Positions 16,814 to 35,700 of a DNA stretch of 38,353 nt are shown here, one piece after another. Each line of letters starts with the position of its first letter. The stretch's first letter is position 1. The notes beneath the pieces were generated by a model. The model worked only from the letters and a program-made list of their open reading frames with translations. It did no database searches and was not told the DNA's origin. The stretch is from a virus. The translations under genes and the position numbers were made by a program. The stretch spans positions 1 through 38,353 of the IMG/VR virus record IMGVR_UViG_3300021424_000103; one strand, written 5' to 3'.

Positions 16814-16822
16814 ACCTTAACC
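16814..16822 (-). other. In-frame GGT-TAA-GGT interruption of the sheath gene
   Basis: In the gene direction the codons read TAT ATA GGT TAA GGT TTT GGT. The frame is open for 267 codons before and more than 800 codons after this stop. The same nine bases interrupt the glycosyltransferase gene at 35692-35700. A ribosome hop from the first GGT to the second would give GYIGFGSS. Readthrough, reinitiation at the TTG 15 bases after the stop, or a real mutation are the alternatives. Confidence 0.75.
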
Positions 16823-17620
16823 TATATAACCATTAATGTCATTAGTGCCTTGGTAATAATCGAAGGTTGCATAAAACCAAGGATCATTAATTGTTGATGA
16901 AAAATCAATATTAGCTTGATTAATTGAGCTTACCCCAAAAGTTTCAGTAGTTGCTGTGGTATTAAAAGGTGAACCTGTTACTGAATTAATTGTCGACGAA
17001 CTAACCGCTCCCCAAAAATAAGAAGTCTTACCTGATAATGCAGATGATGTAGAATAAAGACCTATTTGATCTGAAATATAATCTTTAAAGTCATCACTTA
17101 TACTTGATGTTCCTCCATTAAATGTTGTATAAGAATTGTAAAAATCATTTTGTAAATTTGAAGGTAATGAAGAAATAGATGTTATAGTAACATTAGTACT
17201 ATTACCAGTTGTACCTGTAAAAAATACGTAACTAGGTCCTGATGTACCTGTTACTGATACAGTAGAAGGGTCAACATTACCTGCAGTTACAATAGACCAA
17301 GATGGTCCTGCATCGTAACCCGATAAACCTAATACCCTTGTTACAAAAAGTTGATTTGATTGTTGTAAATATGAATTCGAAATATAAGCCAATTCATATT
17401 TTGGAATTTGTGTGTTTACAAATTTTTCAGGACTTGTTCCCCCAAAATAAACTTGAAACTCATCAAAATTTGTTATGAAAATAGGTTCGAAGGCTGGCCC
17501 TTGTAAAGTCTCACCAACTAAGCCTAAAGTAGTTACACCAACACTTTGTGCAACGAAAGTTAAGTCCCTTTCTGAGGTATAGACCCCTGCAGAAACGAAT
17601 ACTTTTGTAGAAGATGCCAT
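16817..17620 (-). CDS. 18: Tail sheath protein, N-terminal part (ends at in-frame TAA)
   Basis: 267 codons with the typical sheath N-terminus: VFVSAGVYTSERDLTFVAQS followed by TTLGLVGETLQGPAFEPIFI and FDEFQVYFGG. These match the start of the sheath family (Gly-Val-Tyr, Glu-x-Asp, then Gly-Pro and an aromatic Phe-Gly-Gly). Alone it would lack the sheath C-terminal domain and could not assemble. The next codons after the stop continue the same protein, so it is one gene broken by a stop or recoded at it. It has its own upstream box at 17652-17659. Confidence 0.85.
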   Translation of the reverse strand: MASSTKVFVSAGVYTSERDLTFVAQSVGVTTLGLVGETLQGPAFEPIFITNFDEFQVYFGGTSPEKFVNTQIPKYELAYISNSYLQQSNQLFVTRVLGLSGYDAGPSWSIVTAGNVDPSTVSVTGTSGPSYVFFTGTTGNSTNVTITSISSLPSNLQNDFYNSYTTFNGGTSSISDDFKDYISDQIGLYSTSSALSGKTSYFWGAVSSSTINSVTGSPFNTTATTETFGVSSINQANIDFSSTINDPWFYATFDYYQGTNDINGYIG

Positions 17621-17651
17621 TTTTATAGTTTAATTAAAGATTTATTTTATA

Positions 17652-17659
17652 TATAAATA
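17652..17659 (-). promoter_or_regulatory. TATTTATA box
   Basis: An exact TATTTATA on the minus strand, 31 bases upstream of the sheath ATG. Distance and sequence equal those at the tail tube gene, the other very abundant tail protein. Candidate promoter. Confidence 0.5.
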
Positions 17660-17750
17660 CAATCAAAAAAAGCAAAAAACATATAAAAAAGTCCATCATT
17701 TTTTAATAGTATGAAAAAATTCTACCTTTTTTCTACCTATTAAAATATTT

Positions 17751-17906
17751 ATGAATATGAAAAAAATAAAAAATATAAAGATTTCAGAAGAAACACATAC
17801 TTTACTAAAAAACTATTGTGAGGAAAATGGTTTGAAGCTTTATAAGTTTTTAGAAAAATTAATTATTAAGACTTGTAAAAAAGAAAAAGATATTTACGGA
17901 GAGTAG
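17751..17906 (+). CDS. Small ribbon-helix-helix-like protein (putative DNA-binding)
   Basis: A 51-aa open frame on the plus strand within the minus-strand tail module. The sequence MNMKKIKNIKISEETHTLLK, then NYCEENGLKLYKFLEKLIIK, fits the ribbon-helix-helix pattern: a short beta strand with alternating basic and hydrophobic residues, then two helices separated by a Gly turn. Such proteins bind DNA as dimers and often repress phage or plasmid genes. Its stop abuts the stop of the convergent gp15-like gene with no spare base, which suggests real coding use of this gap. A second ATG at 17757 would give 49 aa. The call rests on pattern alone. Confidence 0.6.
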   Translation: MNMKKIKNIKISEETHTLLKNYCEENGLKLYKFLEKLIIKTCKKEKDIYGE

Positions 17907-18953
17907 TTAAACTAAAACCGCATTTGTTTTTATCAAAGACGCTTTTGTATTATCAAATTTTATAACATTAACAACAAGAGTATCTCCGTCTGTTATTTGT
18001 ATTTTTGTTAAATCGTCACCAACATAATTTGAATTGATGTAAACAGAATAAGAACTGATGTTGGTCGTATTACTCACATTTAAATCTACCGTATATCTAA
18101 AAACTTCATTTAGTTGGGTATTTCCTGAAACAAAATTAAAATCTAAATCGAATGAGTTTGGTCTCGGTGGTTCTATTCTAACTCTCTTTGATTTTTTTGA
18201 TGTCTCAAACTCAAAAAGGGAAACTTGTCTCGAAATCGCAGGAGAAACTTGAAATTCTTTATCATCAATTAGAAACCCATTCAAGGTGAATTCATAACTC
18301 ATTATATAGTATTTTCTTTTTTCAATTTCTTTAGGTGAGTCGTCAGATGGGTCCGCTACCACAAGTGGCATATAATGACCATTAATTTGAATGTAAGCTT
18401 GTTTGGATGTGAAATTTTGTAAAATTAATTTGTTGAACTCATTGATCTCACGCATTCTATTACAAAATATCTTAACACTATATACAATATCAACAGGTAT
18501 TGGTTGTGGTACTTTATAAACATCCGCACCTTTTCTTTGACCGTCCCAATTGGGAACGGTAAAATAATTAAATCTAAGTCTTTCTGGAATATTTTGAAAA
18601 AGGTTGTTCCCGCCTAATTTACCATATTTAACTTCAGGTTTTCTAACTGTTATAATAAACGGTAAAGAAACGTTTTTATCTAAATCTTGAAACTCCCATG
18701 TTTCATTAAACTGAGCCCAACTTTGTGTTGTTATTATTTTATTAACTGTTGGTACTGTTTTACCGTCAACAACTAACTTTAGGTTATTTTTAACAAAATC
18801 TAAAACCCCTCCATCCATGTCGGCATGTAAAACACTTTTCGGTAAGTAAGTACCATTGTCGGTAATATCATCCAACATTTGTTGTCTTCTTTCATTACCA
18901 ACCTTAGTAGGTATTAATGGTAAATATTTTTTTACTTTTTTAGGTAATGCCAT
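17907..18953 (-). CDS. Tail completion/sheath-terminator-like protein (gp15-like?)
   Basis: A 348-aa protein of unknown exact family. The middle has PQPIPVDIVYSVKIFCNRMR, then NEFNKLILQNFTSKQAYIQI and IMSYEFTLNGFLIDDKEF. Conversion of a reference frame, a helix, then strands with a final SYEF pattern reminds me of proximal tail sheath stabilising proteins (T4 gp15) of marine myoviruses. Its place directly upstream of the sheath gene agrees, since T4 gp15 caps the head end of the tail. About the last 85 residues look like an added beta domain. The stop-to-start distance to the upstream neck-like gene is one base. The functional label is a context inference. Confidence 0.45.
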   Translation of the reverse strand: MALPKKVKKYLPLIPTKVGNERRQQMLDDITDNGTYLPKSVLHADMDGGVLDFVKNNLKLVVDGKTVPTVNKIITTQSWAQFNETWEFQDLDKNVSLPFIITVRKPEVKYGKLGGNNLFQNIPERLRFNYFTVPNWDGQRKGADVYKVPQPIPVDIVYSVKIFCNRMREINEFNKLILQNFTSKQAYIQINGHYMPLVVADPSDDSPKEIEKRKYYIMSYEFTLNGFLIDDKEFQVSPAISRQVSLFEFETSKKSKRVRIEPPRPNSFDLDFNFVSGNTQLNEVFRYTVDLNVSNTTNISSYSVYINSNYVGDDLTKIQITDGDTLVVNVIKFDNTKASLIKTNAVLV

Positions 18954-18954
18954 T

Positions 18955-19470
18955 TTATAATCCGTTAAATTCGTTGTTAGTTACAGGTGCTGCTATTATT
19001 GTTCTATAGTATTTTTTATAACCACCATAAGTATGTTTCATATCTGAATTAACTCGTCCGTCATTTACCACCGAATAATACCTTACCCTATCTTCTGTTT
19101 CGTAATAAGCCAAATAATCACCCAAAGATATTTCAATAGCCAATTGATCTAAATGTGATTGATAAACACTAAATGTCATATTACCAGGTTCAAGTTGAGA
19201 TAATTTGGAAGACCCATAATCAGAATTTGCAGGTGCCTCAATTTTAACTAAACCTTTTACTTCAATTGGAGCCAAAAATTGTATTCCGTCACTCATTGCT
19301 TCACCATACACGTCATCATTATTTGTTCTTTCTTTATCAACCCTATATAAAACGACCGTGAAATTCATATCACCCATTTGCCATTCCATACCCATTTCAA
19401 TTTCTAAATTGAAGTCTTCTTCAGAAAAAAACTTATTTAATCTTGTAATTGGAACTTTATTCTGTGACAT
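18955..19470 (-). CDS. Neck / head-completion-like protein
   Basis: A 171-aa protein with a beta-rich pattern. It begins MSQNKVPITRLNKFFSEEDF and has LGDYLAYYETEDRVRYYSVV followed by a Tyr/Lys-rich TYGGYKKYYRTIIAAPV. A Gly-Asp followed by hydrophobic strands is common in head-tail connector and stopper proteins, but no family match is certain. It is the first structural gene after a minus-strand terminator and is one base from the gp15-like gene. A head-tail joining role is inferred from position. Confidence 0.4.
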   Translation of the reverse strand: MSQNKVPITRLNKFFSEEDFNLEIEMGMEWQMGDMNFTVVLYRVDKERTNNDDVYGEAMSDGIQFLAPIEVKGLVKIEAPANSDYGSSKLSQLEPGNMTFSVYQSHLDQLAIEISLGDYLAYYETEDRVRYYSVVNDGRVNSDMKHTYGGYKKYYRTIIAAPVTNNEFNGL

Positions 19471-19475
19471 ATAAA

Positions 19476-19482
19476 ATAAATA
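19476..19482 (-). promoter_or_regulatory. TATTTAT box
   Basis: TATTTAT on the minus strand, 5 bases upstream of the neck-like gene ATG and just after the terminator. Candidate promoter for the neck-sheath transcript. Confidence 0.4.
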
Positions 19483-19491
19483 TCAATAAAC

Positions 19492-19514
19492 AAAAAAACC
19501 CACATATAGTGGGT
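19492..19514 (-). terminator. Rho-independent terminator, minus strand
   Basis: On the minus strand ACCCAC / GTGGGT forms a perfect 6-bp stem with a 5-base loop (19498-19514), followed by seven T. It lies 21 bases after the stop of the acidic protein gene and separates it from the neck-sheath transcript. Confidence 0.8.
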
Positions 19515-19535
19515 CTTTAATTTTTATTTGTTTAT

Positions 19536-19892
19536 TCAAATACCAAAAGGGTTTGATTCTATTCCGTCAACAAAATCATTTAATAATAAACAGGCCTCTT
19601 CTATTTCTCCAACTTTCATTGAAAGTAAGTCAAAAATGTCTTCATTATTTTCCATTGATTTTAAATCTTCGACTAATGATTCCAACATATCTATTAAATT
19701 ACTACATTCGTCTTGTTTATCTTCTATTTCATCCTCAGTATATTTTGACATGTTTTCATCATCAATATCTTCGTCATCATAATCAATATCTTCGTCATCC
19801 TCAATATCCTTTTCGTCCTTATCTTGTTCATATATGACACGGTTAACAATTCTATAAAGATCTGATTCTGAAAGTCCTATTTTTCTTTTCAT
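19536..19892 (-). CDS. Acidic small protein with LSESDL N-terminus
   Basis: A 118-aa, strongly acidic protein. The basic N-terminal helix MKRKIGLSESDLYRIVNRVI is followed by a long Asp/Glu stretch (residues about 22-58) and a helical C-terminal half. The N-terminal peptide resembles a LTESQL/LSESDL motif that recurs at protein ends in this phage group. The function is not known; an assembly factor, scaffold-like or targeting role is possible. Transcribed alone between a divergent promoter region and a terminator. Confidence 0.65.
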   Translation of the reverse strand: MKRKIGLSESDLYRIVNRVIYEQDKDEKDIEDDEDIDYDDEDIDDENMSKYTEDEIEDKQDECSNLIDMLESLVEDLKSMENNEDIFDLLSMKVGEIEEACLLLNDFVDGIESNPFGI

Positions 19893-19922
19893 TTTTTAAT
19901 TTTTACAAGTTTAATTCATTTG

Positions 19923-19929
19923 ATAAATA
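19923..19929 (-). promoter_or_regulatory. TATTTAT box, minus strand of divergent region
   Basis: TATTTAT on the minus strand, 30 bases upstream of the acidic protein ATG, inside the 96-base region between divergent genes. It mirrors the plus-strand box at 19976-19983. Confidence 0.4.
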
Positions 19930-19975
19930 TATCATTAAAAAAAAAAGTTGTTTTTTTTATATTATTTACTATTTT

Positions 19976-19983
19976 TATTTATA
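19976..19983 (+). promoter_or_regulatory. TATTTATA box, plus strand of divergent region
   Basis: An exact TATTTATA on the plus strand, 5 bases before the ATG chosen for the SNF2 helicase. At this spacing it may also act in translation rather than as a promoter. Confidence 0.4.
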
Positions 19984-19988
19984 ATATA

Positions 19989-22853
19989 ATGGAAGAATTA
20001 ATTTCAAAAACTCTCGAAACAAGAGCCCTTCAAATGTTAGATGATTATGTAGGATTAAATAACTATATCTTAGGATTAAAACACAAAAAACAAAATAGTA
20101 AATCATTTACACCAACAAGATCTCAAGCAGAATACATAATTAACTTTCACGGACGAACACCAAAGGTTGCAAAAAAATGGGTAAAACTCGATTCATACTT
20201 TGGAAAAAAAATGATGGAAGATAAAATGTATACGAAGGAACCGTCAGAAATATACGTTGAAAAGTTATTAGTTGAAAAAGATAAATCATATCACATTTGG
20301 GGTAAAATATTTAGTGGTGAAACTTTACATGATTTTTGGATTCCAAAAACAGCACTTATAAAAGATAATGAAGTTAAAAATGTTGTGATTGAATATTCAA
20401 AATACGATCACAGGGCACCGATGGTTCATCAAAAAGAGGCTATTGAAAAACTTGTTAGAAACAAAAAGTTTATTTTAGCTGACGATATGGGATTGGGGAA
20501 AGGTCTATTGAAGTCGACAATTATCTACACACCTTATGGGACTAAAAAAATTGGAAATACTTTAGTCGGTGATGAAATAATCGGTAGCGATGGTGCAACA
20601 TATAAAGTTACAGGTGTTTACCCCCAACCTGAACAGGACATTTATGAAATCACCTTTAATGATGGTGTTAAAATAAAAACAGACGGATATCATTTATGGT
20701 CTGTATCATCACCAAATTATGGTAAAAATAGAAAAAACGAAAGACGAAAAAAAACCATAGTATTATCAACCAAACAAATGTTTGAGGGTGGTAAAATTAA
20801 AGTTAAAGGTAATGACTACAATAAAGCTAGGGAATATGAAATTGAAACTTATTATAAATCATCGAACGGTAACAATAAATGGCAAATTCCAATCGTTGAT
20901 CCAATTCAATTTGAACGGGATGATATTCTTCCGATAGATTCTTATTTATTAGGTCTTGGATTAGGTGACGGTTCGTTCAGACAAAAAAACATTAGATTTT
21001 CGGTACATAAAGATGATTATGACGATATGTTTGAGTCATTTCCATTGAATGAACATAAAACAAGGATTAATCAAAGGGGTGGGGGTATTAATGTTGGTAC
21101 TTCATTGTATGATTTAGGTATTGAACATACGCGGTCTCAAACTAAATTTATTCCAGAAATATACAAATATTCATCAATTGAAAATAGGTTAGCAATTCTA
21201 CAAGGATTAATGGATACTGATGGACATTGTATGTTTAATGGAAGTGGGAAGTTTTTAGGGACTGAATTTTGTACTGTATCAAAACAACTATGTGATGATG
21301 TTGTTGAGATTGTTCAAACATTAGGTGGTATTGCTAGAGTCAAAACTCGTATCCCAACATATACACATAATGGTGAAAAAAAGAAAGGTAAGTTAGTATA
21401 TAGGGTTAATATTAAATTACCGAAGGGTATGAACCCATTTAGATTAAAACGAAAGGCCGAAAGGTATGTTGAACCAACAAAATACCCAACTGGTAGATAT
21501 ATTAAAAATATTGAAAAAGTTGGTTTTGAAGATAGTGTTTGTATTTCTGTTGATTCACCAGATAAATTATACGTCACAGAACATTGTATTGTAACCCATA
21601 ATACAACCTCAACAATTATATCTGCACTTGAAACCGGGGCTAAAAAGATTTTAATTATATGTCCGGCATCTTTAAAAATAAATTGGCAACGTGAAATTGA
21701 AAATTATTCAGATAGAACCGTATATATTGCAGAAGGTAAAAAATTTTCAAGTGAATCTGATTTTGTTATAATTAACTATGACATATTAAAAAACTTTCAC
21801 GACCCAAAAAAGAAAGAAGAATCCACAATTTTAAATTCAAATTTTGATTTGGTTATTATGGATGAAGCACATATGATATCGAATCCACAAGCACAAAGAA
21901 CAAAGATTGTAAATAATTTATGTGGTAAAGTTGAAAGAGTTTGGTTATTGACAGGGACTCCAATGACATCAAGACCAATGAATTATTATAATCTTTTAAG
22001 TTTAGTTGAAAGTCCTGTTGCTGCAAATTGGATGGCTTACGCAAGAAGATATTGTAATGGATTCCAATTTAGTGTTGGAAAAAGAAAAGTTTGGAATGTA
22101 ACGGGAGCATCAAATTTAGATGAATTAAGAGAAAGAACTCAAACACATATTTTAAGAAGATTAAAAGAAGATGTTTTAGATTTACCTGATAAAATTATAA
22201 CACCCGTTTATTTAAGATTAAAATCTAAAGACTATGAAGAACTTATGGGTGAATATTTTAATTGGTATGATAACAACTCAGAAGAGTCATCATCTTTAAC
22301 AATTCAGTTTGGAAAACTAATGAAAGTTAGAAAAGTGATTGCTGAAGAAAAAGTAAAAAACACTATTGAGTTAGCAGAAAACATTATAGAGCAAGGAAAA
22401 AAAGTAATCATATTTACAAACTTCACCGACACTTTAAAAACAATATATGAACATTTTGGAAAACAAGCGGTTTATTTAGATGGTTCATGTTCAAAACCTC
22501 ATCGTCAAAAGGCGGTGGACGATTTTCAAGAAAACGACAAGATTAAAGTTTTCGTTGGGAACTTAAAGGCTGCAGGTGTTGGTATTACTTTAACCTCAGC
22601 GGAGGCCGTTATTATGAATGACTTATCGTTTGTGCCTGCAGAACACGCACAAGCAGAAGACAGATCACATAGAATTGGTCAAAAAAATTCAACATCAGTT
22701 TACTACCCACTTTTTGAAAACACAATAGAAGGTGTTATATATGATATCCTTAATAGAAAGAAAAAAATAATATCTACTGTGATGGGTGATGGTCTTATGG
22801 AAGACGCATCTGCTATTGAAGAAGTGTTAAATATGATTTCTCATAAGAGGTGA
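19989..22853 (+). CDS. SNF2-family DNA helicase containing an intein
   Basis: A 954-codon frame from the ATG at 19989. An upstream ATG at 19920 would add a hydrophobic leader with poor composition and is less likely. The host protein is a SNF2-type ATPase: Walker A DDMGLGK-T (split by the intein), DEAH box IMDEAH (about residue 622), motif III LLTGTP, and motif VI in AEDRSHRIGQ (about residue 890). Such proteins act in replication fork repair or recombination. Without the intein it is 587 aa, a usual length for a phage SNF2 helicase. The intein occupies residues 172-538. Splicing would join GLGK to TTSTIIS and restore the P-loop, so ATPase activity should depend on splicing. Confidence 0.92.
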   Translation: MEELISKTLETRALQMLDDYVGLNNYILGLKHKKQNSKSFTPTRSQAEYIINFHGRTPKVAKKWVKLDSYFGKKMMEDKMYTKEPSEIYVEKLLVEKDKSYHIWGKIFSGETLHDFWIPKTALIKDNEVKNVVIEYSKYDHRAPMVHQKEAIEKLVRNKKFILADDMGLGKGLLKSTIIYTPYGTKKIGNTLVGDEIIGSDGATYKVTGVYPQPEQDIYEITFNDGVKIKTDGYHLWSVSSPNYGKNRKNERRKKTIVLSTKQMFEGGKIKVKGNDYNKAREYEIETYYKSSNGNNKWQIPIVDPIQFERDDILPIDSYLLGLGLGDGSFRQKNIRFSVHKDDYDDMFESFPLNEHKTRINQRGGGINVGTSLYDLGIEHTRSQTKFIPEIYKYSSIENRLAILQGLMDTDGHCMFNGSGKFLGTEFCTVSKQLCDDVVEIVQTLGGIARVKTRIPTYTHNGEKKKGKLVYRVNIKLPKGMNPFRLKRKAERYVEPTKYPTGRYIKNIEKVGFEDSVCISVDSPDKLYVTEHCIVTHNTTSTIISALETGAKKILIICPASLKINWQREIENYSDRTVYIAEGKKFSSESDFVIINYDILKNFHDPKKKEESTILNSNFDLVIMDEAHMISNPQAQRTKIVNNLCGKVERVWLLTGTPMTSRPMNYYNLLSLVESPVAANWMAYARRYCNGFQFSVGKRKVWNVTGASNLDELRERTQTHILRRLKEDVLDLPDKIITPVYLRLKSKDYEELMGEYFNWYDNNSEESSSLTIQFGKLMKVRKVIAEEKVKNTIELAENIIEQGKKVIIFTNFTDTLKTIYEHFGKQAVYLDGSCSKPHRQKAVDDFQENDKIKVFVGNLKAAGVGITLTSAEAVIMNDLSFVPAEHAQAEDRSHRIGQKNSTSVYYPLFENTIEGVIYDILNRKKKIISTVMGDGLMEDASAIEEVLNMISHKR
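20502..21602 (+). other. Class 3-like intein with LAGLIDADG homing endonuclease
   Basis: 367 residues inserted in the Walker A loop of the SNF2 helicase. It begins with Gly (GLLKSTIIYTPYGTKKIG) rather than Cys or Ser and ends VTHN, followed by extein Thr. The three residues that define class 3 inteins are visible: Trp66 in YHLW (block B), Cys347 in SVCISVDSP (block F) and Thr365 in VTHN (block G). In class 3 splicing the block F Cys is the first nucleophile, which explains the missing N-terminal Cys. Two LAGLIDADG motifs are present, LLGLGLGDGS and LQGLMDTDGH, so the endonuclease is probably active in homing. The boundaries follow from restoration of GxGKT. Confidence 0.88.
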
Positions 22854-22861
22854 TATTTATA
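22854..22861 (+). promoter_or_regulatory. TATTTATA box
   Basis: An exact TATTTATA on the plus strand, 4 bases before the ATG of the peptidase-SOD gene and directly after the helicase stop. Confidence 0.4.
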
Positions 22862-22865
22862 TATT

Positions 22866-23954: not shown

Positions 23955-23959
23955 TAAGA

Positions 23960-23967
23960 TATTTATA
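23960..23967 (+). promoter_or_regulatory. TATTTATA box
   Basis: An exact TATTTATA on the plus strand, 14 bases before the ATG of the connector-like gene. Confidence 0.45.
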
Positions 23968-23981
23968 TAAAAAATATTCTT

Positions 23982-28339: not shown

Positions 28340-28369
28340 ATTTGTATATTTTAAGTTTGGTATATTAGC

Positions 28370-28387: not shown

Positions 28388-28427
28388 TTTACCTTCGTTT
28401 TAAATATAAGAGTAAAATTTACCCATG

Positions 28428-28781
28428 TCAAATAATATTGATATATAAATTTTCTCTAATTGGTCCTATTAATTCTCCGTTTGATAATTCAATTAAAAAT
28501 TCTCCGATGTATCTTCCTTTTTTTTCTGTATCTTTTCCTCTCCACTTGTAGTAGATATAATATTCTCTTGGTGAGTCGGGATTTCTTCTTTCTTTTTCTG
28601 TTATATATGCTGGCCTCATGAATATTTTTTGAATTCCATCATTTTCACTTTTCATAGAAAACCTAATGGTTGCATTATCAAGTATAGAATAAAAGTCTTT
28701 CCAAGAGTCAGTTCTCCCGTCTCTTACGACATCCATTTTCAAAATGGGTAAATTACTATTTTGTTTTATAAAAAATTCCAT
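28428..28781 (-). CDS. Small structural protein, baseplate-upper-protein-like fold (putative)
   Basis: A 117-aa protein with the order seen in BppU-type N-terminal domains: LPILKMDVVRDGRTDSWKDF, an NATIRFSMKSE strand, then EYYIYYKWRGKDTEKKGRYI and a GEFLIELSNGELIGPI ending. In such proteins an Ig-like fold describes attachment of fibres to the baseplate. It follows a 38-aa gene by 8 bases and lies close to the fibre locus. Family recognition is from the pattern only. Confidence 0.55.
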   Translation of the reverse strand: MEFFIKQNSNLPILKMDVVRDGRTDSWKDFYSILDNATIRFSMKSENDGIQKIFMRPAYITEKERRNPDSPREYYIYYKWRGKDTEKKGRYIGEFLIELSNGELIGPIRENLYINII

Positions 28782-28789
28782 TTATTTTT

Positions 28790-28906
28790 TTAATAAATTA
28801 AAAAGTTCTTGTTTTCCCCTAAAGAAATTGTTTTTGTTTTATTAAAATCTTCTCCTGTTACGTAAATTGTGGTTTTACCATTATTTTGTTGAATTATTCT
28901 TCCCAT
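28790..28906 (-). CDS. 38-aa small protein
   Basis: Short open frame MGRIIQQNNGKTTIYVTGED, ending in a Lys/Asn-rich segment NKNFLIY. An exact TATTTATA box lies 9 bases upstream and the next structural gene starts 8 bases after its stop, which together support it as real. Two beta strands are likely. No function assigned. Confidence 0.5.
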   Translation of the reverse strand: MGRIIQQNNGKTTIYVTGEDFNKTKTISLGENKNFLIY

Positions 28907-28915
28907 TTTTTACTT

Positions 28916-28923
28916 TATAAATA
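28916..28923 (-). promoter_or_regulatory. TATTTATA box
   Basis: An exact TATTTATA on the minus strand, 9 bases upstream of the 38-aa gene. The same spacing is seen before the fibre gene at 30345-30770. Confidence 0.45.
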
Positions 28924-28970
28924 TTTGTAATATATAAAAAATTATATTTACATTTTTTATTTGATTTTAA

Positions 28971-29827
28971 TTAAGGTAAGCTAAATTTTCTTACAGCACG
29001 CACATTGGCCGTGTAGCTCTTAGAGGCGTTGCTGGCAAACCCATTGACGAAGTTGAAGTACCACGCAGTGCTGTTGGAGTCCTCCGCACTACTCCAATAG
29101 GCATTATAATCAATTTGAGTGGCTGCCTCAATTGCCCCATAACTACTACTACCAAATAAAGTTCTATTTACATTAAATCTGTTTTGCCATAATAAACTTA
29201 ACTCATCAATAGCCGGTAAATACCAGTCTGTTTTGCTATTATTAGTTGAATCTAAACACAATTTAGCTGCTCCACTTGTAAATCCACCTTGTCCTACTAT
29301 TGCATTACTATTTGAATTTCCATCCCATGTGCTTTGAGCAGTTGAACCAATAAACGTAGTAGTTACATTGCTCCAAACAGATGATGTGTTCAAATCAGCG
29401 GTATCAACAACTAGATAGTTTTCATTTACACCATCTAAGTATCTATGAAATATTACTCCTCCTTGTGATGGGACATACTCACCAATTTCATAGGTGTAAC
29501 CTCCACCACTAACTCCCGTTAAATTAGAACCATCACCATAGAGTGTTGTTGCACTTATTGTTGTCGCACTGATTGTTGTTGCTGTCAATCCTTGTAAAGA
29601 TGTATTTCCTGTTACAGTTAAATTTCCATTTACAGTAAGTCCTGTTACGGTATTAATTGTTGCTATTAAATTTGGTTGACCTTGATTTCTTGATATTGTA
29701 AATACGTTATTTGAATATGTGAATGCTGATGTGAACGTATCTGCAGTTACGGGTAAATTCTGATATGTTGTTGCCGATATTATTGAAGATTCTATATTTG
29801 TTTGACCTGTTAATATGCCATTTTCAT
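28971..29827 (-). CDS. Tail fibre with C-lectin/DUF1566-like tip; 5' end defective
   Basis: The open frame runs from about 29843 to 28971. The first 95 or so residues are fibre-like (TGLTVNGNLTVTGNTSLQGL, then ISATT repeats) and nearly identical to the fibre gene at 30345-30770. From about residue 110 it becomes a DUF1566/Lcl-type C-terminal domain: DWYLPAIDELSLLWQNRF, then YNAYWSSAEDSNSTAWYFNF and VRAVRKF. Such tips have a C-type-lectin fold and are common targets of diversity-generating retroelements. There is no in-frame ATG. An ATG at 29827 would be in frame if one A were added to the following A run (giving MKNGILTG). A TTG at 29588 is an unconvincing alternative start. It may be a silent cassette, a frameshifted gene or a sequence error. 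Confidence 0.65.
28992..29099 (-). other. Candidate diversity-generating variable region
   Basis: The last 36 codons before the conserved end of the fibre tip are about half G+C by eye, against roughly 30% around them. Most codons end in C (GAC, TCC, AAC, AGC, TAC, TTC, GTC, GCC), as expected when AAC codons of a template are changed at their adenines. The position near the 3' end, and the WSS...AWYFNF...VRAVR frame, match known variable regions. No template copy or reverse transcriptase is in this window. Confidence 0.5.
29572..29648 (-). repeat. 77-bp direct repeat, copy 1 (fibre tip cassette)
   Basis: 77 bases identical to 30514-30590 and in the same orientation, encoding the fibre stretch around VTGLTVNGNLTVTGNTSLQG. 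The copies are 942 bp apart and enclose the plus-strand gene at 29870-30367. Confidence 0.9.
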
Positions 29828-29869
29828 AAAATATTTTGTGATATTAATAAATATACTTAAATTTGTATT

Positions 29870-30367
29870 ATGCAAACATTTCTTCCGTATTCCGATTTTA
29901 TAAAATCATTAGAGTCATTAGACAACAAACGTTTAGGTAAGCAGCGTGTTGAGGCTTATCAAATTATTTCAGCAATTACAGGTAGATTGCGTAAAGATGG
30001 TAAACCATATAAAGGTTGGGTGTCTCACCCTTGTTCTATCATGTGGAAAGACTATGTAAATGCACTTAGACAATACTACAACGATTGTATTGATGTTTGG
30101 AAAGAACGTGGATTTAAAAATAACATGGAATACGAGACAATTGAAGGTGAATTTGTTTTGCCACATTGGTTGGGTAACGAAGAGTTTCATTCGTCTCACA
30201 GAGCAAATCTTTTACGTAAAGATTTTGAATATTACACAAAACATGGTTGGACTGAAAATCCTGAAGATCCTTATGTTTGGTTAGATGATAAAGGTATGTG
30301 GTATAAACAAATAGTTGGTTCTAAAGAACGTGTTTTTTTTAAACCTACCACGATGTTAGTCCCGTAA
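29870..30367 (+). CDS. Pyrimidine-dimer-glycosylase-like protein (MSMEG_6728-type)
   Basis: A 165-aa protein beginning MQTFLPYSDFIKSLESLDNK and continuing RLGKQRVEAYQIISAI. It has HPCSIMWKDYVNAL in the middle and a C-terminal EEFHSSHRANLLRKDFEYYT followed by GWTENPEDPYVW. This is the pattern of a widespread family related to pyrimidine dimer DNA glycosylases (T4 endonuclease V type); in that family the N-terminal part and Arg residues contact DNA. The enzymatic role is inferred. It lies on the opposite strand between two related fibre genes, and its 3' end overlaps the stop of the second by 23 bases, which suggests insertion into the fibre locus. Confidence 0.7.
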   Translation: MQTFLPYSDFIKSLESLDNKRLGKQRVEAYQIISAITGRLRKDGKPYKGWVSHPCSIMWKDYVNALRQYYNDCIDVWKERGFKNNMEYETIEGEFVLPHWLGNEEFHSSHRANLLRKDFEYYTKHGWTENPEDPYVWLDDKGMWYKQIVGSKERVFFKPTTMLVP

Positions 30368-30770
30368 ATTTTACCCAAGAGGTATTTGTTTTAACATAAA
30401 AAGAATTGCCGCTCCAACTCATCGAACCAATAGACCCTGTTGGGTCTGTGGATCCTGTTGGAACGTATGTTGTTTTAAAAATGAAATCATCCGTGGTTGT
30501 TGTAGTTGCAGATATTGTTGTTGCTGTCAATCCTTGTAAAGATGTATTTCCTGTTACAGTTAAATTTCCATTTACAGTAAGTCCTGTTACAGAATTTATT
30601 GTAACAGATTTTGTACCCCCTGTTGGGTTTGTTATTGTTAACGTATTTGCAGAAAAAGTAAGCCCGCTAACCCCCAGACTTTGTAGATAATATAAATTAT
30701 TATCCATTTCTTGGAATGTCAGTTTGGCGTTTTTTGCGTCAGGAGGTAATATTCTTGTAACTAATGGCAT
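30345..30770 (-). CDS. Short tail fibre / fibre base protein
   Basis: A 141-aa protein starting MPLVTRILPPDAKNAKLTFQ, EMDNNLYYLQSLG, then a beta-rich repeat part (LTVNGNLTVTGNTSLQGLTA) identical to the other fibre. It closes with a short domain SIGSMSWSGNSFYVKTNTSW. The N-terminus looks like an attachment domain found at the start of many phage fibre genes. It has a TATTTATA box 9 bases upstream. Compared with the gene at 28971-29827, it has an intact start but a small tip, so the two look like an expressed base and an alternative tip cassette. Confidence 0.7.
   Translation of the reverse strand: MPLVTRILPPDAKNAKLTFQEMDNNLYYLQSLGVSGLTFSANTLTITNPTGGTKSVTINSVTGLTVNGNLTVTGNTSLQGLTATTISATTTTTDDFIFKTTYVPTGSTDPTGSIGSMSWSGNSFYVKTNTSWVKFTGLTSW
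30514..30590 (-). repeat. 77-bp direct repeat, copy 2 (short fibre gene)
   Basis: Identical to 29572-29648 over 77 bases, same orientation. Recombination between the copies would delete the glycosylase-like gene and place the short fibre N-terminus in frame with the lectin-type tip. Confidence 0.9.
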
Positions 30771-30779
30771 TTTTTATTT

Positions 30780-30787
30780 TATAAATA
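30780..30787 (-). promoter_or_regulatory. TATTTATA box
   Basis: An exact TATTTATA on the minus strand, 9 bases upstream of the short fibre gene ATG. Confidence 0.45.
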
Positions 30788-30793
30788 TAATGT

Positions 30794-32722
30794 TTATTCA
30801 AAATAGAACTCATCAACGTAACCTTCAGGTAAATATCCATTCGTGACAAGACAATCAGGACACCAAAAATCTAAAAGATTAAATTTATTTTTTAACACTC
30901 TAAAATTATGTTGTACTTGTGGAGACCCTAATGGTTCAACATACATTCTAAATTGAGATATACCACCCATAAATGTTCCACCAAAATTTTGTTCTAAAAG
31001 TATATTTGTTGGAAGTCCTGATAAAGTAGTTGCCGATAAAATATTATTTGGAAAAAGTTCAGGATCTTGTGTGTAAGGACCATTTGGTAATGAACAACCT
31101 GAAAAAATTAAATGATCGTGTAACCCTTGCGTACCTCCACCAAATGATAGGTTGAAGGGAACACCTACTTGTTTTTCTTTTTCTGTGTTTAATTCTCTTG
31201 GAATAATTTCTTCGAAATCTTCAATTACTAAAAACAAATATCCATTAACATAAAGTTTTAACGTTCCTAATCTATAGTCCAAATCATCGAACCATTTTTT
31301 ATCAAAACGTATTTCATGTATTTTTCTTTCGGGTGTAGAACCAAAATGTGTCTCAGGTGGTGAAATTAAATTGACTGACTGACCATCTATTGATGATTGC
31401 GTTGTAACAACTCTTAAATCATTTAATCCCCCTAAATTTAATAAATCACATTCCTCTATTATTTTATACCTTTCGAATACCGCACTTATCATTACCCACC
31501 TTTCTTTATCGGTATCACCACACTGTAAACCACAAATATCATATATTGGATCTGATAAAACTTCTGTTATTGTGTATCCTGTTTGAAATGTCACACCTGT
31601 TGTTTCACAAGTTCCTGTTGTAACACAATCACCTGTAATTTTTATGTACTTAATACCAATACGAGGATTCAAAGCACAACCGTCAAATCTTAATGATATT
31701 GCATTTGATAAAACATCAAACTTTGGATCGGTTTCAGGTAAAGGAACGTTTTCTGTACTTGCACAACCACAATTACATCCGGTGTTATGTATTGTTGTAA
31801 ATCCACTACTTGGGTAAACTTTTATACAATCTGAATTTGTAATGCCCGTATTTGAACATCCACAAGTCTCAATACAAGTTAAATCTTTTGTATTTCTTGT
31901 ATAACCTGTATTACTTGCAGGTGACCCACTTGCATTATGATAAAATTTATTTTCTGCTCTTGTACCAAAATAAAAAAATGTTCCAGCATTAGAAGGATAT
32001 TTGTCATTTAAGTATTCTTGTGTTGTACTATTAATAAAATACTCATCAGTTATTCTTGGTTTTAAAACCATTTCGGCAGACCAACCCTTATTCACTCTTT
32101 CTGGGAATACTTCGTAGTCGTAACCATTTAATTTATAAAAACCTTGATAAAATCCTCCATATAATTCTTGGTAATATCCAACCGTTGACGCACTTTTTGA
32201 TACAATATTATAAACAGTTTCTTTCGGTCTTCCTGAAAAACTTATGTTTGGTGAATTAACCAAACTTCTCACAGGGTGCATTTTGAATCTACTATCCCTA
32301 TAATGTGGATTAAATTTATATGTATTATTAATCCCTTTGATATAATATAAAGTTTGACCAGTAAGCCCTGTAAATAAACCGTTGTCAGTACCAACCAAAC
32401 CTACATCACAAATTCCTGTATACGCAGTATAACAACTATAATCTAAATTTTTTGGATTATAAAAATTGGAAGAAATTAAAGTATTGTTTGAAACATAATT
32501 ACCAAAAGTAATATTTGATTGTAAAGTGTTTCCAGAATTGTCTAATTCTATAGTTATAGGTAATCTGTTGCCATCATTTTTTCCAATCACTTCAGTTGAG
32601 AATACAACTTCTTTGTCATAGTCTTTTTCATCTGAGGCCAAAGTAAGGTCAAAATATTGACCATAATTTAATTTTGTGGAGTATTTTGGATAATAATAAG
32701 AATTAATATTTTGACTTGGCAT
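30794..32722 (-). CDS. Cysteine-rich virion protein with concanavalin-like lectin domain
   Basis: A 642-aa structural protein. Residues about 420-600 fit a LamG/concanavalin-type sandwich: KERWVMISAVFERYKIIEEC, LGTLKLYVNGYLFLVIEDFE, VPFNLSFGGGTQGLHD and GGTFMGGISQFRMYVEPLG. The middle carries many Cys in close groups (ETCGCSNTG, GCNCGCAS, CGLQCGD, and a C-terminal FWCPDC), unusual for a phage virion protein, and could bind metal or form disulfides. Gene order next to the fibre genes suggests a fibre or fibre-support protein that binds host sugars. No family name assigned with certainty. Confidence 0.65.
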   Translation of the reverse strand: MPSQNINSYYYPKYSTKLNYGQYFDLTLASDEKDYDKEVVFSTEVIGKNDGNRLPITIELDNSGNTLQSNITFGNYVSNNTLISSNFYNPKNLDYSCYTAYTGICDVGLVGTDNGLFTGLTGQTLYYIKGINNTYKFNPHYRDSRFKMHPVRSLVNSPNISFSGRPKETVYNIVSKSASTVGYYQELYGGFYQGFYKLNGYDYEVFPERVNKGWSAEMVLKPRITDEYFINSTTQEYLNDKYPSNAGTFFYFGTRAENKFYHNASGSPASNTGYTRNTKDLTCIETCGCSNTGITNSDCIKVYPSSGFTTIHNTGCNCGCASTENVPLPETDPKFDVLSNAISLRFDGCALNPRIGIKYIKITGDCVTTGTCETTGVTFQTGYTITEVLSDPIYDICGLQCGDTDKERWVMISAVFERYKIIEECDLLNLGGLNDLRVVTTQSSIDGQSVNLISPPETHFGSTPERKIHEIRFDKKWFDDLDYRLGTLKLYVNGYLFLVIEDFEEIIPRELNTEKEKQVGVPFNLSFGGGTQGLHDHLIFSGCSLPNGPYTQDPELFPNNILSATTLSGLPTNILLEQNFGGTFMGGISQFRMYVEPLGSPQVQHNFRVLKNKFNLLDFWCPDCLVTNGYLPEGYVDEFYFE

Positions 32723-32733
32723 TCTTTTTTATG

Positions 32734-32740
32734 ATAAATA
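32734..32740 (-). promoter_or_regulatory. TATTTAT box, minus strand of divergent region
   Basis: TATTTAT on the minus strand, 11 bases upstream of the Cys-rich virion protein ATG. It is one of two back-to-back boxes in the 51-base divergent region. Confidence 0.45.
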
Positions 32741-32752
32741 GTTTAATCGCGG

Positions 32753-32760
32753 TATTTATA
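32753..32760 (+). promoter_or_regulatory. TATTTATA box, plus strand of divergent region
   Basis: An exact TATTTATA on the plus strand, 13 bases before the ATG at 32774. It is the partner of the minus-strand box at 32734-32740. Confidence 0.5.
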
Positions 32761-32773
32761 GGTAAAAGACTGA

Positions 32774-33526
32774 ATGAAAACATATAAATATTCAACAAAG
32801 GAAAGAGCAGAAAGGGTTGCAAAATCTTTAGGGTGTTCGGGATCTCATTATCACAACGAAGATGGAAAAAGAAAATACATGCCGTGTAAAGATATGAAAA
32901 CCTTTAAAGAAAAAACAAAAAAAGAAACTAAAGGTAAAGAAGAAGAGGTAACAGAATTGATTGATGATGACGGTACTTGGTTAAGTTCATCAATTCCTAT
33001 TTTAGATCCGGCATCAAGTTTGCAAGGTTCGACATTTACCGATAAAACAGTTCAACAATCGAGAAATCCAAGAGACCCACTATTAAGAGGTTGGTACGGA
33101 TATTATGGAGAAGGAAAGGTGGATGAAAGCGACATGGAAAGGGCGTTCGGTTATCATGATACTTTGTTTATGGACTATGATGAAACTGTTGAGTATTTTA
33201 AAAAAAAGTTAGGTTTGGACAAAGACTCAGCAATTGAAAGGACGGTACAACAAGGAAAAAAACCTAAATTACACAAAAGAACACCAAAAGCAATTAAAAA
33301 TAAAAAAGGATTTATTGATAGGTTAATTTTGAAAGAAAAAGATATAGATGAAACTGATGAAATAATTGAAGATATAATATTGAACCGTGATAAAAAAACC
33401 GACAACGATTCACAAGTAAAAATTATTAAGAGAAATATCATGTCATTGAAAAAAATGGCAGGTAATGCCGGCATTTCAACTAAACAATTAATTAATATGT
33501 TGTCAAGTGAACAAGAATCTATATGA
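32774..33526 (+). CDS. Protein with CxxxHxH...MPC motif, unknown function
   Basis: A 250-aa basic protein. Residues 10-40 read AKSLGCSGSHYHNEDGKRK followed by YMPC, a pattern I recall from short segments in several phage structural proteins and one that could bind a metal (Cys, two His, Cys). The rest is low complexity, with Lys/Glu-rich helices. It begins a run of five tightly packed plus-strand genes (32774-35269) of virion-protein style. Possibly a structural or scaffold-type protein; function unknown. Confidence 0.55.
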   Translation: MKTYKYSTKERAERVAKSLGCSGSHYHNEDGKRKYMPCKDMKTFKEKTKKETKGKEEEVTELIDDDGTWLSSSIPILDPASSLQGSTFTDKTVQQSRNPRDPLLRGWYGYYGEGKVDESDMERAFGYHDTLFMDYDETVEYFKKKLGLDKDSAIERTVQQGKKPKLHKRTPKAIKNKKGFIDRLILKEKDIDETDEIIEDIILNRDKKTDNDSQVKIIKRNIMSLKKMAGNAGISTKQLINMLSSEQESI

Positions 33527-33956
33527 TAGAAAGGCGAAACTACCTGATGATTTATTAAAACATTTGAAACAATGTTTTAGTTCTGTTGATGCCGATAGTA
33601 ATACTGAGGGATATAACAGAAATAAAGAAATAAATGATAGTGGTTATGTGACATACCAACAAATCAAAAGAATTAAAAATTGGTTTGATGGTTATGGGGG
33701 TAAAAAAGAAGACGCTCCTTTCATATTAAATGGTGGTGATAGAATGAAAAATTGGTGTGATGAGGTATTAAGGGTTTGGAGAGATAATGATGACTCAAGT
33801 AAAAAACATAAATCAGACGCTGGAATGCAAAACCAATATTTAGATTCACATGAAAAAAATAGTTTTAATTTGGCGGACACCCATTCAACCACAGCAGATC
33901 AATTATCAGTAAAAGAAGAAATAAAAAGAATAAATAAACTAATAAAAATATTATAA
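33507..33956 (+). CDS. Conserved-looking phage protein, unknown function
   Basis: A 149-aa protein with a GTG start overlapping the previous gene by 20 bases. Recognisable run: LPDDLLKHLKQCFSSVDADS, then VTYQQIKRIKNWFDGYGGKK and APFILNGGDRMKNWCDEVLR. This looks like a compact helical domain with a C-terminal helix. I recall similar proteins in marine phages without known function. Translation is probably coupled to the upstream gene. Confidence 0.6.
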   Translation: MNKNLYDRKAKLPDDLLKHLKQCFSSVDADSNTEGYNRNKEINDSGYVTYQQIKRIKNWFDGYGGKKEDAPFILNGGDRMKNWCDEVLRVWRDNDDSSKKHKSDAGMQNQYLDSHEKNSFNLADTHSTTADQLSVKEEIKRINKLIKIL

Positions 33957-34249
33957 TGCCAGTACAATCAGACAAATTAGATTTTTCGCAACCGGATAAT
34001 AATTTATCAAAAATTGCAGAAGAACAAAGAAAAAGATTATTTCCAAGAAATGACTATAAACCAACCGACCAATATTCATCAGTACATCCAAACGCAATCG
34101 CTGATGGTGATGCAAATGGAAAGGGTACGGGAGTATTTTTAGACGTATATAATCAAAATGCAGGATCAAGTGTTGATAGAGCAGAAAGAAAAGACGATCT
34201 AAAAGGTAATAAATATTCACCAAACAACCCATACTATACCGTTAAATGA
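33956..34249 (+). CDS. Small hydrophilic protein, unknown function
   Basis: A 97-aa protein rich in Asn/Asp/Gly (ADGDANGKGTGVFLDVYNQN), probably largely disordered. Its ATG overlaps the previous stop (TAATG) and its end overlaps the next gene by 4 bases (ATGA), so the whole run is translationally coupled. No family recognised. Confidence 0.55.
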   Translation: MPVQSDKLDFSQPDNNLSKIAEEQRKRLFPRNDYKPTDQYSSVHPNAIADGDANGKGTGVFLDVYNQNAGSSVDRAERKDDLKGNKYSPNNPYYTVK

Positions 34250-34647
34250 GACTACTAGATAGTTTAAAAAAATTAGTTACTGAAGCGGCATCTTTGGGTG
34301 ATGTTCAAGACTCTATTAAGAAAAAAAAGATAATTGTTATTTACTACGATGGAAATGATAATGGTGGTAAGGGTTATAGAACAATTGAACCTTTGTGTTT
34401 AGGTTACAGTAAAAAAGGAAATTTAGTTCTTAGGGCTTGGGAATCCGAGGGATCTTCTTGGAGTGCAAAAAATAAAGGAAACTTTTTACCAGGTTGGAGG
34501 CTATTTAGATTAGATAAAATATTTACATACCAACCAACAATGGATAATTTTATTGACATGAGGCCTAATTATAACCCTAATGGTGATAGGTCCATGGAGA
34601 GAGTTTTAATAAATGCGAAATTCGATAACGTTGATAATTTAACATAA
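34246..34647 (+). CDS. WYL-domain-like protein
   Basis: A 133-aa protein with a short N-terminal helix and then a WYL-type beta domain: KKIIVIYYDG, a YRTIEPLCLGYSKKGNLVLR strand pair, AWESEGSSWS and GWRLFRLDKI. WYL domains bind nucleic acids or nucleotide ligands and usually sit in bacterial transcription regulators with a DNA-binding N-terminus, some of which control phage defence. Here no helix-turn-helix is present, so it is a stand-alone WYL-like unit. It could titrate or imitate a host regulator or act as a virion component. Confidence 0.6.
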   Translation: MRLLDSLKKLVTEAASLGDVQDSIKKKKIIVIYYDGNDNGGKGYRTIEPLCLGYSKKGNLVLRAWESEGSSWSAKNKGNFLPGWRLFRLDKIFTYQPTMDNFIDMRPNYNPNGDRSMERVLINAKFDNVDNLT

Positions 34648-34648
34648 T

Positions 34649-35269
34649 ATGACAAATGAACAAGATTTGATGCAAAGATTGGCAGTATCAAAAAAAATAA
34701 TGGAAAAACATGGTGAAATTAGAAGGGGTGACTCAAGACCGATGACATCATCAATTGAGGAGTTTCAACCGTTCAATGCGACTTATAATTTACCTGAAGA
34801 ATTTTTAACAGAAAATTCATCACCCAAAACTTACCACGATCCTTCACAACCCTTAGAACGGGAAAGAATAATGAATTCAAAATTACCTGATGAGATAAAA
34901 AGATTAATGATTGAGCAACCAATAGTACAACCAAGTTCAATGGGTGGCGGCACTGTTCTATCAAATGAGGTTATCGAGGGGGCAACAAGATTAATGAAAA
35001 AAGAAAAAACATCAGAAATACCTAATAAACAAATACCAAAACAGAAAATTACAGAAACACAAACATCATCTAATATAAACATGTCTGAAATTAAAAATAT
35101 AATTAGAGATGTTGTTAGAGACACTGTGAGAGATGTTGTTAGAGAAGAGTTTAAAGATGCTGGAATGATTGTTGAATCAACACAAAACACAAATGAAACA
35201 ATACAATTCAAAGTCGGTCAGCATTTGTTTATCGGAAAAGTAACAAAAATAAAAAAATTAGAAAAATAA
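34649..35269 (+). CDS. Helical protein with coiled-coil segment, probably virion-associated
   Basis: A 206-aa protein. The first half is low complexity (Pro/Ser/Glu). Residues about 140-170 form a repeated amphipathic helix (SEIKNIIRDVVRDTVRDVVR), then a short beta end FKVGQHLFIGKVTKIKKLEK. The helix suggests oligomerisation. It starts one base after the stop of the WYL-like gene and its stop is followed directly by the broken endonuclease. Role unknown; scaffold or virion protein are possible. Confidence 0.55.
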   Translation: MTNEQDLMQRLAVSKKIMEKHGEIRRGDSRPMTSSIEEFQPFNATYNLPEEFLTENSSPKTYHDPSQPLERERIMNSKLPDEIKRLMIEQPIVQPSSMGGGTVLSNEVIEGATRLMKKEKTSEIPNKQIPKQKITETQTSSNINMSEIKNIIRDVVRDTVRDVVREEFKDAGMIVESTQNTNETIQFKVGQHLFIGKVTKIKKLEK

Positions 35270-35277
35270 AATCTGTT

Positions 35278-35627
35278 GTAAGATCAAAAAAAGAAAAAGA
35301 TATAGTTTTAGAAATAAAAAAAATAGGTTATGATGTAAAACACTCATTAAAAATAGATACTAAAATATGTGACATATACATACCTAAATTAAATTTAATA
35401 ATTGAATATAATGGAGATTACTGGCATTGTAATCCAAAAAATATAAATCAGATTATTTTCATCAGGTAAAACAAAAAACAGCACAAGAATTATGGGATAA
35501 TGATAAGGACAAGATTGACTTAATTATAAAAAATGGTTATAATTTGGAAGTAGTTTGGGAACCACATCTAAAAGAAAATCCAAAACTTATAAAACAAATT
35601 ATAAAAAAATATGACACAAGAGAGTAA
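35278..35627 (+). pseudogene. Vsr/homing-type endonuclease, frameshifted remnant
   Basis: Two overlapping frames together make one protein. Frame 1 (from about 35278 to the stop at 35469) gives RSKKEKDIVLEIKKIGYDVK, KHSLKIDTKICDIYI and LIIEYNGDYWHCNPK. Frame 2 then continues YKSDYFHQVKQKTAQELWD, KDKIDLIIKNGYNLEVVWE to a stop at 35627. Adding one A to the run of six at 35436-35441 joins them. The EYNGDYWHCNP...K.TAQELW...GY...VWE pattern is that of phage Vsr-type/homing endonucleases. There is no ATG, and no credible start at the 5' end. It ends 17 bases inside the glycosyltransferase frame. Confidence 0.75.
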
Positions 35628-35697
35628 ATATACTCCGGACGTTCGCAGAAAAATTAGGGTGTTAGTAGTCCCTAGCGATCGTACCGGAGTTGGTTAA
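35611..35697 (+). CDS. Glycosyltransferase, N-terminal fragment before TAA
   Basis: An ATG at 35611 opens 28 codons, MTQESKYTPDVRRKIRVLVV then PSDRTGVG, before an in-frame TAA. The segment LVVPSDRTGVG is the typical N-terminus of phage glycosyltransferases that start Val-Pro-Ser-Asp, and the following frame continues KFRSVDPH. It is not a separate gene but the 5' end of the next one. Full length without the interruption would be 414 aa. Confidence 0.75.
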   Translation: MTQESKYTPDVRRKIRVLVVPSDRTGVG

Positions 35698-35700
35698 GGT
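35692..35700 (+). other. In-frame GGT-TAA-GGT interruption of glycosyltransferase
   Basis: Codons read GGA GTT GGT TAA GGT AAA TTT AGA. Related glycosyltransferases read Gly-Val-Gly followed directly by a Lys or Tyr and Phe-Arg, so the stop plus one Gly look like an extra pair of codons. The same nine bases are found in the tail sheath gene at 16814-16822. Confidence 0.75.

Follow-up and report, generated by a model that had tools for sequence, protein, structure and literature searches.

A glycosyltransferase gene split by a stop codon

We analysed a stretch of virus DNA of 38,353 bases (IMG/VR record IMGVR_UViG_3300021424_000103), hereafter called the window, in which a glycosyltransferase (GT) gene is interrupted by an in-frame stop codon and is a candidate for programmed ribosome bypassing. 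At this locus, the remnant of a homing endonuclease gene is followed by a short 5' open reading frame (ORF), which contains a predicted mRNA hairpin and ends on a glycine codon, here called the take-off codon; a stop and a second glycine codon, the landing codon, then lead into the GT body (Table 1). The last ~15 codons of the 5' ORF correspond to the normal start of the GT (KIRVLVLPSDRTGVG), and ahead of them lies an extension of about 10 codons that is absent from uninterrupted genes. Among the 71 uninterrupted relatives described below, 67 start 17-19 amino acids (aa) before the body, and the other four have a further in-frame ATG upstream.

Table 1 Features of the window considered in this study.
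Feature	Position	Strand	Remarks
Window	1-38,353		IMG/VR record IMGVR_UViG_3300021424_000103; virus DNA
NUMOD3 homing endonuclease remnant	35272..35624	+	Residues 188-305 of the 305-aa L088 homologue (tblastn), in two frames
Split-GT 5' ORF	35611..35697	+	28 codons MTQESKYTPDVRRKIRVLVVPSDRTGVG, then TAA; first codons form an extension without counterpart in uninterrupted genes
mRNA hairpin (predicted)	35632..35690	+	Ends just before the take-off codon; 5' arm in the extension
Take-off codon GGT (Gly)	35692..35694	+	
Stop TAA	35695..35697	+	Would occupy the A site at take-off; equals the 3-nt coding gap
Landing codon GGT (Gly)	35698..35700	+	Counterpart of the native Gly codon in uninterrupted relatives; marks the cassette's right-hand edge
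GT body	35701..36861	+	386 codons, begins KFRSVDPH; GT-B fold predicted from an uninterrupted relative
Tail sheath gene	14402..17620	-	One nonsense change, TAA at 16819-16817; outside the element

Survey of split glycosyltransferase genes

For the search of similar junctions, we fetched the best 80 of 186 relatives of the GT body. In 71 of them the reading frame continues without a break across the SDxxGVG-KFRS motif or a variant of it; the other nine have a stop directly after GVG and already cover three gap lengths. Contigs L123 and L166 also carry the stop and the extra bases, with a GT body that matches the window at 100%. We then used a first DNA pattern, in which GTTGGN, a TAA or TGA stop and a KFRxx(V/I/L..)DPH body follow each other within 30 nucleotides (nt) and no landing codon is demanded. 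It matched 37 viral contigs; when the window is included, the codon directly before the body is Gly in 38 of 38. Added scans with the endonuclease (best 80 of 106), with a divergent GT (all 43) and with a second landing-free pattern (15 stretches, AGY or GGY demanded at take-off) yielded Ser-type members as well as further Gly-type ones. In total, we collected 39 distinct elements, each counted as 5' ORF plus gap plus landing codon, on 60 viral contigs besides the window (contigs counted by hand); the landing codon was demanded by none of the searches. A pattern scan of genome contigs gave a sole match, L322, whose context is not a GT junction and which we took as chance.

Since the junction recurs on 60 other viral contigs with matched codons and covarying hairpins, it is hardly credible that the stops are sequencing or assembly errors, although such an error is likely for a second stop in the window, in the tail sheath gene, as far as one near-identical contig tells.

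Take-off and landing codons are matched across gaps in all three frames

The 5' ORFs of the elements are 26-29 codons long and end on Gly or Ser, with GGT, GGC, AGC or AGT as take-off codon, and the stops comprise 21 TGA, 17 TAA and one TAG. From take-off to landing the gap measures 2-10 nt, stop included, with lengths of 2, 3, 4, 5, 6, 8, 9 and 10 nt. Gap length modulo 3 is 0, 1 and 2 in 25, 4 and 10 elements, respectively, so all three frames are used and a single mechanism must therefore ignore frame. In L304-306 and L233-234, where the gap is 2 nt, the landing codon starts on the last base of the stop. In any of the frames, joining take-off to landing gives the protein of the uninterrupted relatives, with one Gly or Ser and no extra residue. 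Stop read-through would suit the gaps of 3, 6 and 9 nt, which are in frame and would add two to four residues, but gaps of 2, 4, 5, 8 and 10 nt are out of frame both ways without a fixed frame relation, and read-through gives no reason for the matched landing codon. We consider read-through or +1/-1 frameshifting very improbable.

The first two bases of take-off and landing codon are the same in 38 of 39 elements, and all three bases in 18 of 39. Among Gly pairs (take-off/landing), GGT/GGT occurs 14 times, GGC/GGT 10 times, GGT/GGA three times, and GGC/GGA and GGT/GGC twice each. Pairs starting on Ser are AGC/AGC (four), AGT/AGC, AGC/AGT, AGC/AGA (L329) and AGT/GGC (L232), the last four once each. 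Within the GT subfamily with a Y/F-F/Y-RS motif, some members have Ser at both codons, whereas others have Gly at both. The Ser-Ser elements use AGY twice in six of six cases (the pattern demanded AGY at take-off for two of them and never at landing), and the same Ser position in distinct uninterrupted genes is TCN in four of five Ser codons. The stronger points from the codons are that a landing codon without a coding role is kept in 38 of 39 elements and that the Ser elements use AGY twice. Landing on GGA and AGA suggests that two of three bases can suffice. L232 and L329, in which the landing codon would encode another amino acid, offer natural tests of tRNA re-pairing.

A hairpin precedes the take-off codon

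When the hairpin was compared with dinucleotide shuffles, five elements (the window and four others) gave z from -1.9 to -3.3, and two uninterrupted controls gave +0.3 and +1.4. Against synonymous recodings, 24 of 24 distinct 5' ORFs fold more stably (mean z -5.0, weakest -3.1; window -4.4). Recoding with the elements' own codon usage, which is the harder test, still left 36 of 36 negative (mean -3.6, weakest -2.1), and recoding with the codon usage of uninterrupted genes gave a mean of -5.05 and a weakest value of -3.0 over 33 sequences. As a control, the 51-nt starts of 49 uninterrupted genes, stretches shorter than the 5' ORFs, had z +0.14. All 15 loci of the second pattern scan, representing nine distinct elements, reached z <= -5.1.

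All 24 of 24 split sequences form a long-range helix ending near the junction, compared with 11 of 52 uninterrupted ones. Six different pair types occur at position -7 and three at position -4, with pairing in 24 of 24, which arises by construction from the single-sequence folds. In an arm-swap test, which does not depend on those pairs, own arms folded at a mean of -25.1 kcal/mol versus -18.8 kcal/mol for swapped arms, and none of 10,000 permutations was as low. A scan of pairs in fixed columns, limited to 22 Gly-type elements out of 36 because the arms are shifted in the window type and others, found clear two-sided changes at -62/-7 and -60/-10 among many uninformative positions. As protein, the extension is poorly conserved, with a ratio of nonsynonymous to synonymous polymorphism (pN/pS) of 0.71 compared with 0.25 for the GT start behind it, which fits an RNA role of the extension. 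A stimulatory stem-loop 5' of the take-off codon is a feature of bypassing of the T4 gene 60 kind; the GT elements have the structure, and the hairpin probably serves this function here.

These folds also bear on whether the gap and one codon might instead be removed from the RNA, by a tiny excision or by polymerase skipping. Such removal would serve all three frames and give the same protein, but it explains the hairpin at take-off less well, and the junction has no long homopolymer on which a polymerase would slip. To our knowledge, no bacterial process removes 5-13 nt at such sites, and we regard this explanation as quite improbable. Group I introns span some 200 nt or more. One was rejected here, as only 2-10 nt separate take-off and landing and Rfam at its gathering threshold gave no match in the window, hence no recognised group I intron.

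Both halves of the gene are under purifying selection

The 5' core has pN/pS 0.25 (28 sequences) versus 0.22 in uninterrupted genes. For the nine codons after the gap, the pattern set gave 0.13, a biased value because the first DNA pattern fixes most of those residues. The elements found through the endonuclease were not chosen for conservation of these codons; their 19 distinct stretches gave 0.32, and the 14 of K-type 0.125. Both halves are thus still under purifying selection, which is perhaps slightly relaxed.

The uninterrupted GT of L082 was modelled with a mean predicted local distance difference test (pLDDT) score of 90, with strand 1 at residues 4-9 and helix 1 from residue 17. In this model the junction falls in the first loop of a GT-B fold, which connects strand 1 with helix 1, so a GT without the 5' ORF would lack strand 1. 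Fold search matched the GT-B enzymes PglA, MshA and BshA, and PHROG matched a glycosyltransferase; a sequence search of PDB with the GT profile returned nothing at E 0.1. In the Ser-type relatives L323, L324, L328, L330, L333, L335 and others, the ORF after the hop has 533-772 codons, and the GT seems to be fused to a further domain.

One alternative is that the gene is dead or split, with a useless peptide of 26-29 aa and a GT that is either not made or restarted at a downstream NTG. In its favour, the pN/pS of the bodies is slightly above that of uninterrupted genes, and the window has a GTG five codons after the gap. However, the 5' core is conserved, and where the locus includes the end of the body, its length is 377-388 codons (pattern set of 38). 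The position of the first in-frame ATG, GTG or TTG past the gap ranges from codon 5 to 214 (38 sequences). A restart there would therefore cost most products strand 1 along with part of helix 1, and often far more. In addition, the codons between gap and restart are conserved where they were not selected for, as in the K-type stretches. The preliminary description had proposed, as one of two models, a stop followed by restart at an NTG 12 bases on, aided by a Shine-Dalgarno-like signal. This fails as a shared rule, and AGG is absent before the landing codon in Ser-Ser members. A dead or restarted gene is therefore an unlikely alternative in our view, though the least improbable of those considered.

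The split junction forms the edge of a probable homing-endonuclease cassette

The two frames of the endonuclease remnant result from a one-base loss in an A-run near 35440 (35430-35450), and L123 has the same loss. Full-length homologues are present in L088, L146, L109 and others. The 305-aa protein of L088 matches Pfam NUMOD3 (E 2e-6) and a PHROG homing endonuclease, and its C-terminus resembles Pfam MTES_1575 below the cut-off, a possible PD-(D/E)xK domain. The end of the endonuclease coincides with the ATG of the 5' ORF or lies shortly beyond it. In named phages, 11 records gave weak matches to its C-terminal part only.

An endonuclease or its remnant lies directly upstream of 35 of 38 pattern-set elements versus 3 of 71 uninterrupted genes; it was not found in L169, L172 and L191, and it is present at uninterrupted L106, L107 and L149. 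Downstream of 80 endonuclease loci, the GT is split in 32, uninterrupted in 20 and absent in 28 (tallied by hand, with several near-copies). Related endonucleases stand directly upstream of uninterrupted GT genes that have no extension in L213-215, L222-228, L235, L236, L238, L242, L244, L246-249 and L252. The uninterrupted GT genes of L090 and L104 (body start 5001) are altered at the junction, reading GVF-KFRSGDPH for GVG-KFRSVDPH; such alleles could be cleavage-resistant.

Such boundaries were seen between L109 and the empty site of L118. The two contigs are 92.6% identical up to a point 1,036 bases ahead of the body in L109 and 150 bases ahead of it in L118, and then unrelated; at the site 1,032 nt replace 146 nt, and from the landing codon onward identity is 96% over 4.1 kb. 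Across the six pairs compared, the same right-hand edge was shared by three besides L109/L118, namely the window with L082, L143 with L136 and L115 with L118. It did not show in L279 with L280, where the edge lies at +9, or in L088 with L083, which have no clear edge. Thus, the endonuclease is present at carriers and absent at the empty site, with collinear flanks, as in a homing cassette. In some pairs the two halves of the gene also differ in similarity. In L178 and L280 the bodies are mostly 93-97% alike and the 5' cores 64%, and in L172 and L191 the 5' ORF is identical and the bodies are 72% identical.

On a tree of 120 GT bodies, made by a quick method and with some long branches, the bypass label requires 24 changes (15 or more by starred branches), compared with 30 when labels are shuffled, a distribution that appears scattered but not random. 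The mobility that the preliminary description had considered possible for its element is thus well supported for the GT element by comparative evidence.

The tail sheath stop is a separate matter

The nine-base string GGTTAAGGT occurs at 16814-16822 on the minus strand, in the tail sheath gene, and at 35692-35700 on the plus strand, in the GT gene, with no other copy in the window. Both copies are in frame and read GGT TAA GGT, and downstream of both come five codons and then NTG GAC. In 100 dinucleotide shuffles the string had a mean of 0.41 copies, and at least two copies arose in 4 of 100, so on letters alone two copies are a weak surprise.

Over 4,294 bases, contig L161 differs from the window at two positions (99.953% identity). 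One is window 16817 (L161:3803), where L161 has TAC (Tyr) for the window's TAA, and the other is window 20425. We fetched the best 80 of 436 sheath relatives, of which 79 cover the codon (L013 begins beyond it); they have Tyr in 48, Gln in 17, Phe in 13, Met in one and a stop in none. The 84 nt before the sheath stop have no unusual fold compared with recoded versions (z -0.68). On these grounds the sheath was rejected as a second site, and the stop is either a single-base error or a nonsense allele and does not represent an element. In named phages, the sheath and the GT have only relatives below 60% identity.

The sheath and GT sites are hence without a common cause. The preliminary description, which had read the string as one compact element shared by two unrelated genes, was right in the placement, frame, opposite strands and spacing of the two copies and wrong in a common element. 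Nor is the string itself the element, as relatives of the GT junction differ in gap, stop and even the amino acid at the hop; what they have in common is that the stop is followed by a matching landing codon and preceded by a hairpin. Its other model, a hop over two codons, finds good support in the comparative evidence for the GT gene and does not apply to the sheath. The search for further cases in relatives, named beforehand as a check, likewise divided the two, since a stop with extra bases recurs at the GT junction in other contigs and no sheath relative covering the codon has one.

Proposed mechanism

The split itself, the matched codons, the hairpin with its covariation, the cassette boundaries in several pairs and the patchy distribution can all be read from the sequences. 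From these we infer that the ribosome hops at the junction, that the hairpin has a role in it, that the endonuclease cuts at this site and that insertion protects the site. We consider it likely that the GT is read by programmed ribosome bypassing, as a 'stop-hop' with a very short gap, within a mobile endonuclease cassette. With somewhat less confidence, we suggest that the elements form a large natural family of short hairpin-driven hops in phages, carried by endonucleases that invade the conserved first loop of the GT-B fold. The cassette would bring along a recoded gene start, a hairpin and a stop, so that recipients with Gly or Ser at this place could be entered in any frame.

In such bypassing, the ribosome would translate the 5' ORF to its Gly (in some relatives Ser) codon, whereupon the stop would enter the A site and stall the ribosome while its P site holds Gly- or Ser-tRNA. 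The peptidyl-tRNA would release, the ribosome would slide 2-10 nt, and the same tRNA would re-pair with the matching landing codon, which in the window would give a product with GVG directly joined to KFRSVDPH. The hairpin, melted inside the ribosome, would probably refold behind it and push it forward, and it may be the main driver, because the 5' ORF has no room for a nascent-peptide signal of the kind known from T4 gene 60. At the DNA level, the right-hand end of the cassette (5' ORF, hairpin and stop) would replace the first codons of the recipient, and the landing codon would be the recipient's own. Insertion would protect the site from re-cutting, and bypassing would keep the gene alive. 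In the window, the endonuclease would have decayed with the bypass remaining.

Several observations weigh against this interpretation. Both the patterns and the tabulating script required the stop, so its presence in 39 of 39 elements is not evidence there; in one locus listing that did not demand it, 13 of 13 split loci have the stop. Because the recipient itself seems to supply the landing codon, as its native Gly or Ser codon, the codon match of Gly elements could be partly inherited. The codons are mismatched in L232 (AGT with GGC) and L329 (AGC with AGA), five Gly elements land on GGA, whose third base does not match a GGY-reading tRNA, and no tRNA gene that might explain this landing was found in 20 bypass loci, which are parts of contigs. 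Regarding the hairpin, the own 3' arm is the very best partner for only 8 of 32 5' arms, related elements sharing arms, and RNAalifold on a MAFFT alignment found only weak helices and not the hairpin. In our view this failure is due to arms shifting by single bases between subtypes, and we relied instead on recoding, on arm swaps and on folds of single sequences. Over the first 150 codons of the body, pN/pS is 0.447 in split genes (27 sequences) versus 0.367 in uninterrupted ones (40). The endonuclease does not need the bypass, as in 20 of the 52 endonuclease loci followed by a GT this gene is uninterrupted. Over 416 same-type pairs, similarity is barely higher for the 5' ORF (0.742) than for the body (0.725), which by this measure makes clear exchanges exceptional.

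If the GT elements work as proposed, they show how an endonuclease could occupy a conserved coding sequence without an intron or intein, and gene callers that end at the first stop would split or truncate such GT genes.

Comparison with known bypassing systems

The closest parallel in the cited passages is phage T4 gene 60 with the homing endonuclease mobA (PMC3014915, PMC5009743), which has a stop at take-off, matched Gly codons and a 5' stem-loop, as the GT elements do. In both, a homing endonuclease lies upstream (defective in T4, decayed in the window) and the gene is conserved with uninterrupted relatives. The 5' stem-loop of gene 60 has been proposed to refold behind the ribosome and push (PMC5009743). 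The systems differ in the gap, which is 50 nt in gene 60 and 2-10 nt in the GT elements, leaving no room for an internal stem-loop, and in the 5' ORF, which at 26-29 codons is too short for gene 60's KKYK-like signal about 30 residues before the P site. The GT elements also differ in using Ser/Ser codons, in interrupting a glycosyltransferase gene, in comprising 39 natural versions with uninterrupted sister alleles, and in their endonuclease, which is of NUMOD3 type with a possible PD-(D/E)xK C-terminus, whereas mobA is HNH.

In the synthetic 'stop-hops' of Weiss et al. 1987, as described in PMC5009743, nine nt yield one amino acid, which is exactly the GGT TAA GGT of the window. Those were laboratory constructs, whereas the GT elements are natural, with a conserved hairpin and a mobile cassette. 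In mitochondria of Magnusiomyces capitatus, bypassing rescues inserted nucleotides, as it would here, but according to the passage on it (PMC5009743) it seems to be independent of mRNA context, whereas the GT elements lie in phage genes with the hairpin tied to take-off. In the tape-measure gene of mycobacteriophage Corndog, an upstream HNH endonuclease inserted at the gene start may entail a bypass (PMC4351075); this is one of two possibilities given by its authors, and the passages mention no family or matched codons. A natural family of short bypasses in phages was not among the matches listed in the open-access literature. By their sequences, the GT elements appear to be a short, widespread form of the known, rare phenomenon of bypassing, and their 39 natural variants in gap, stop, codons and hairpin, together with the uninterrupted sister alleles, make the rules of bypassing directly testable.

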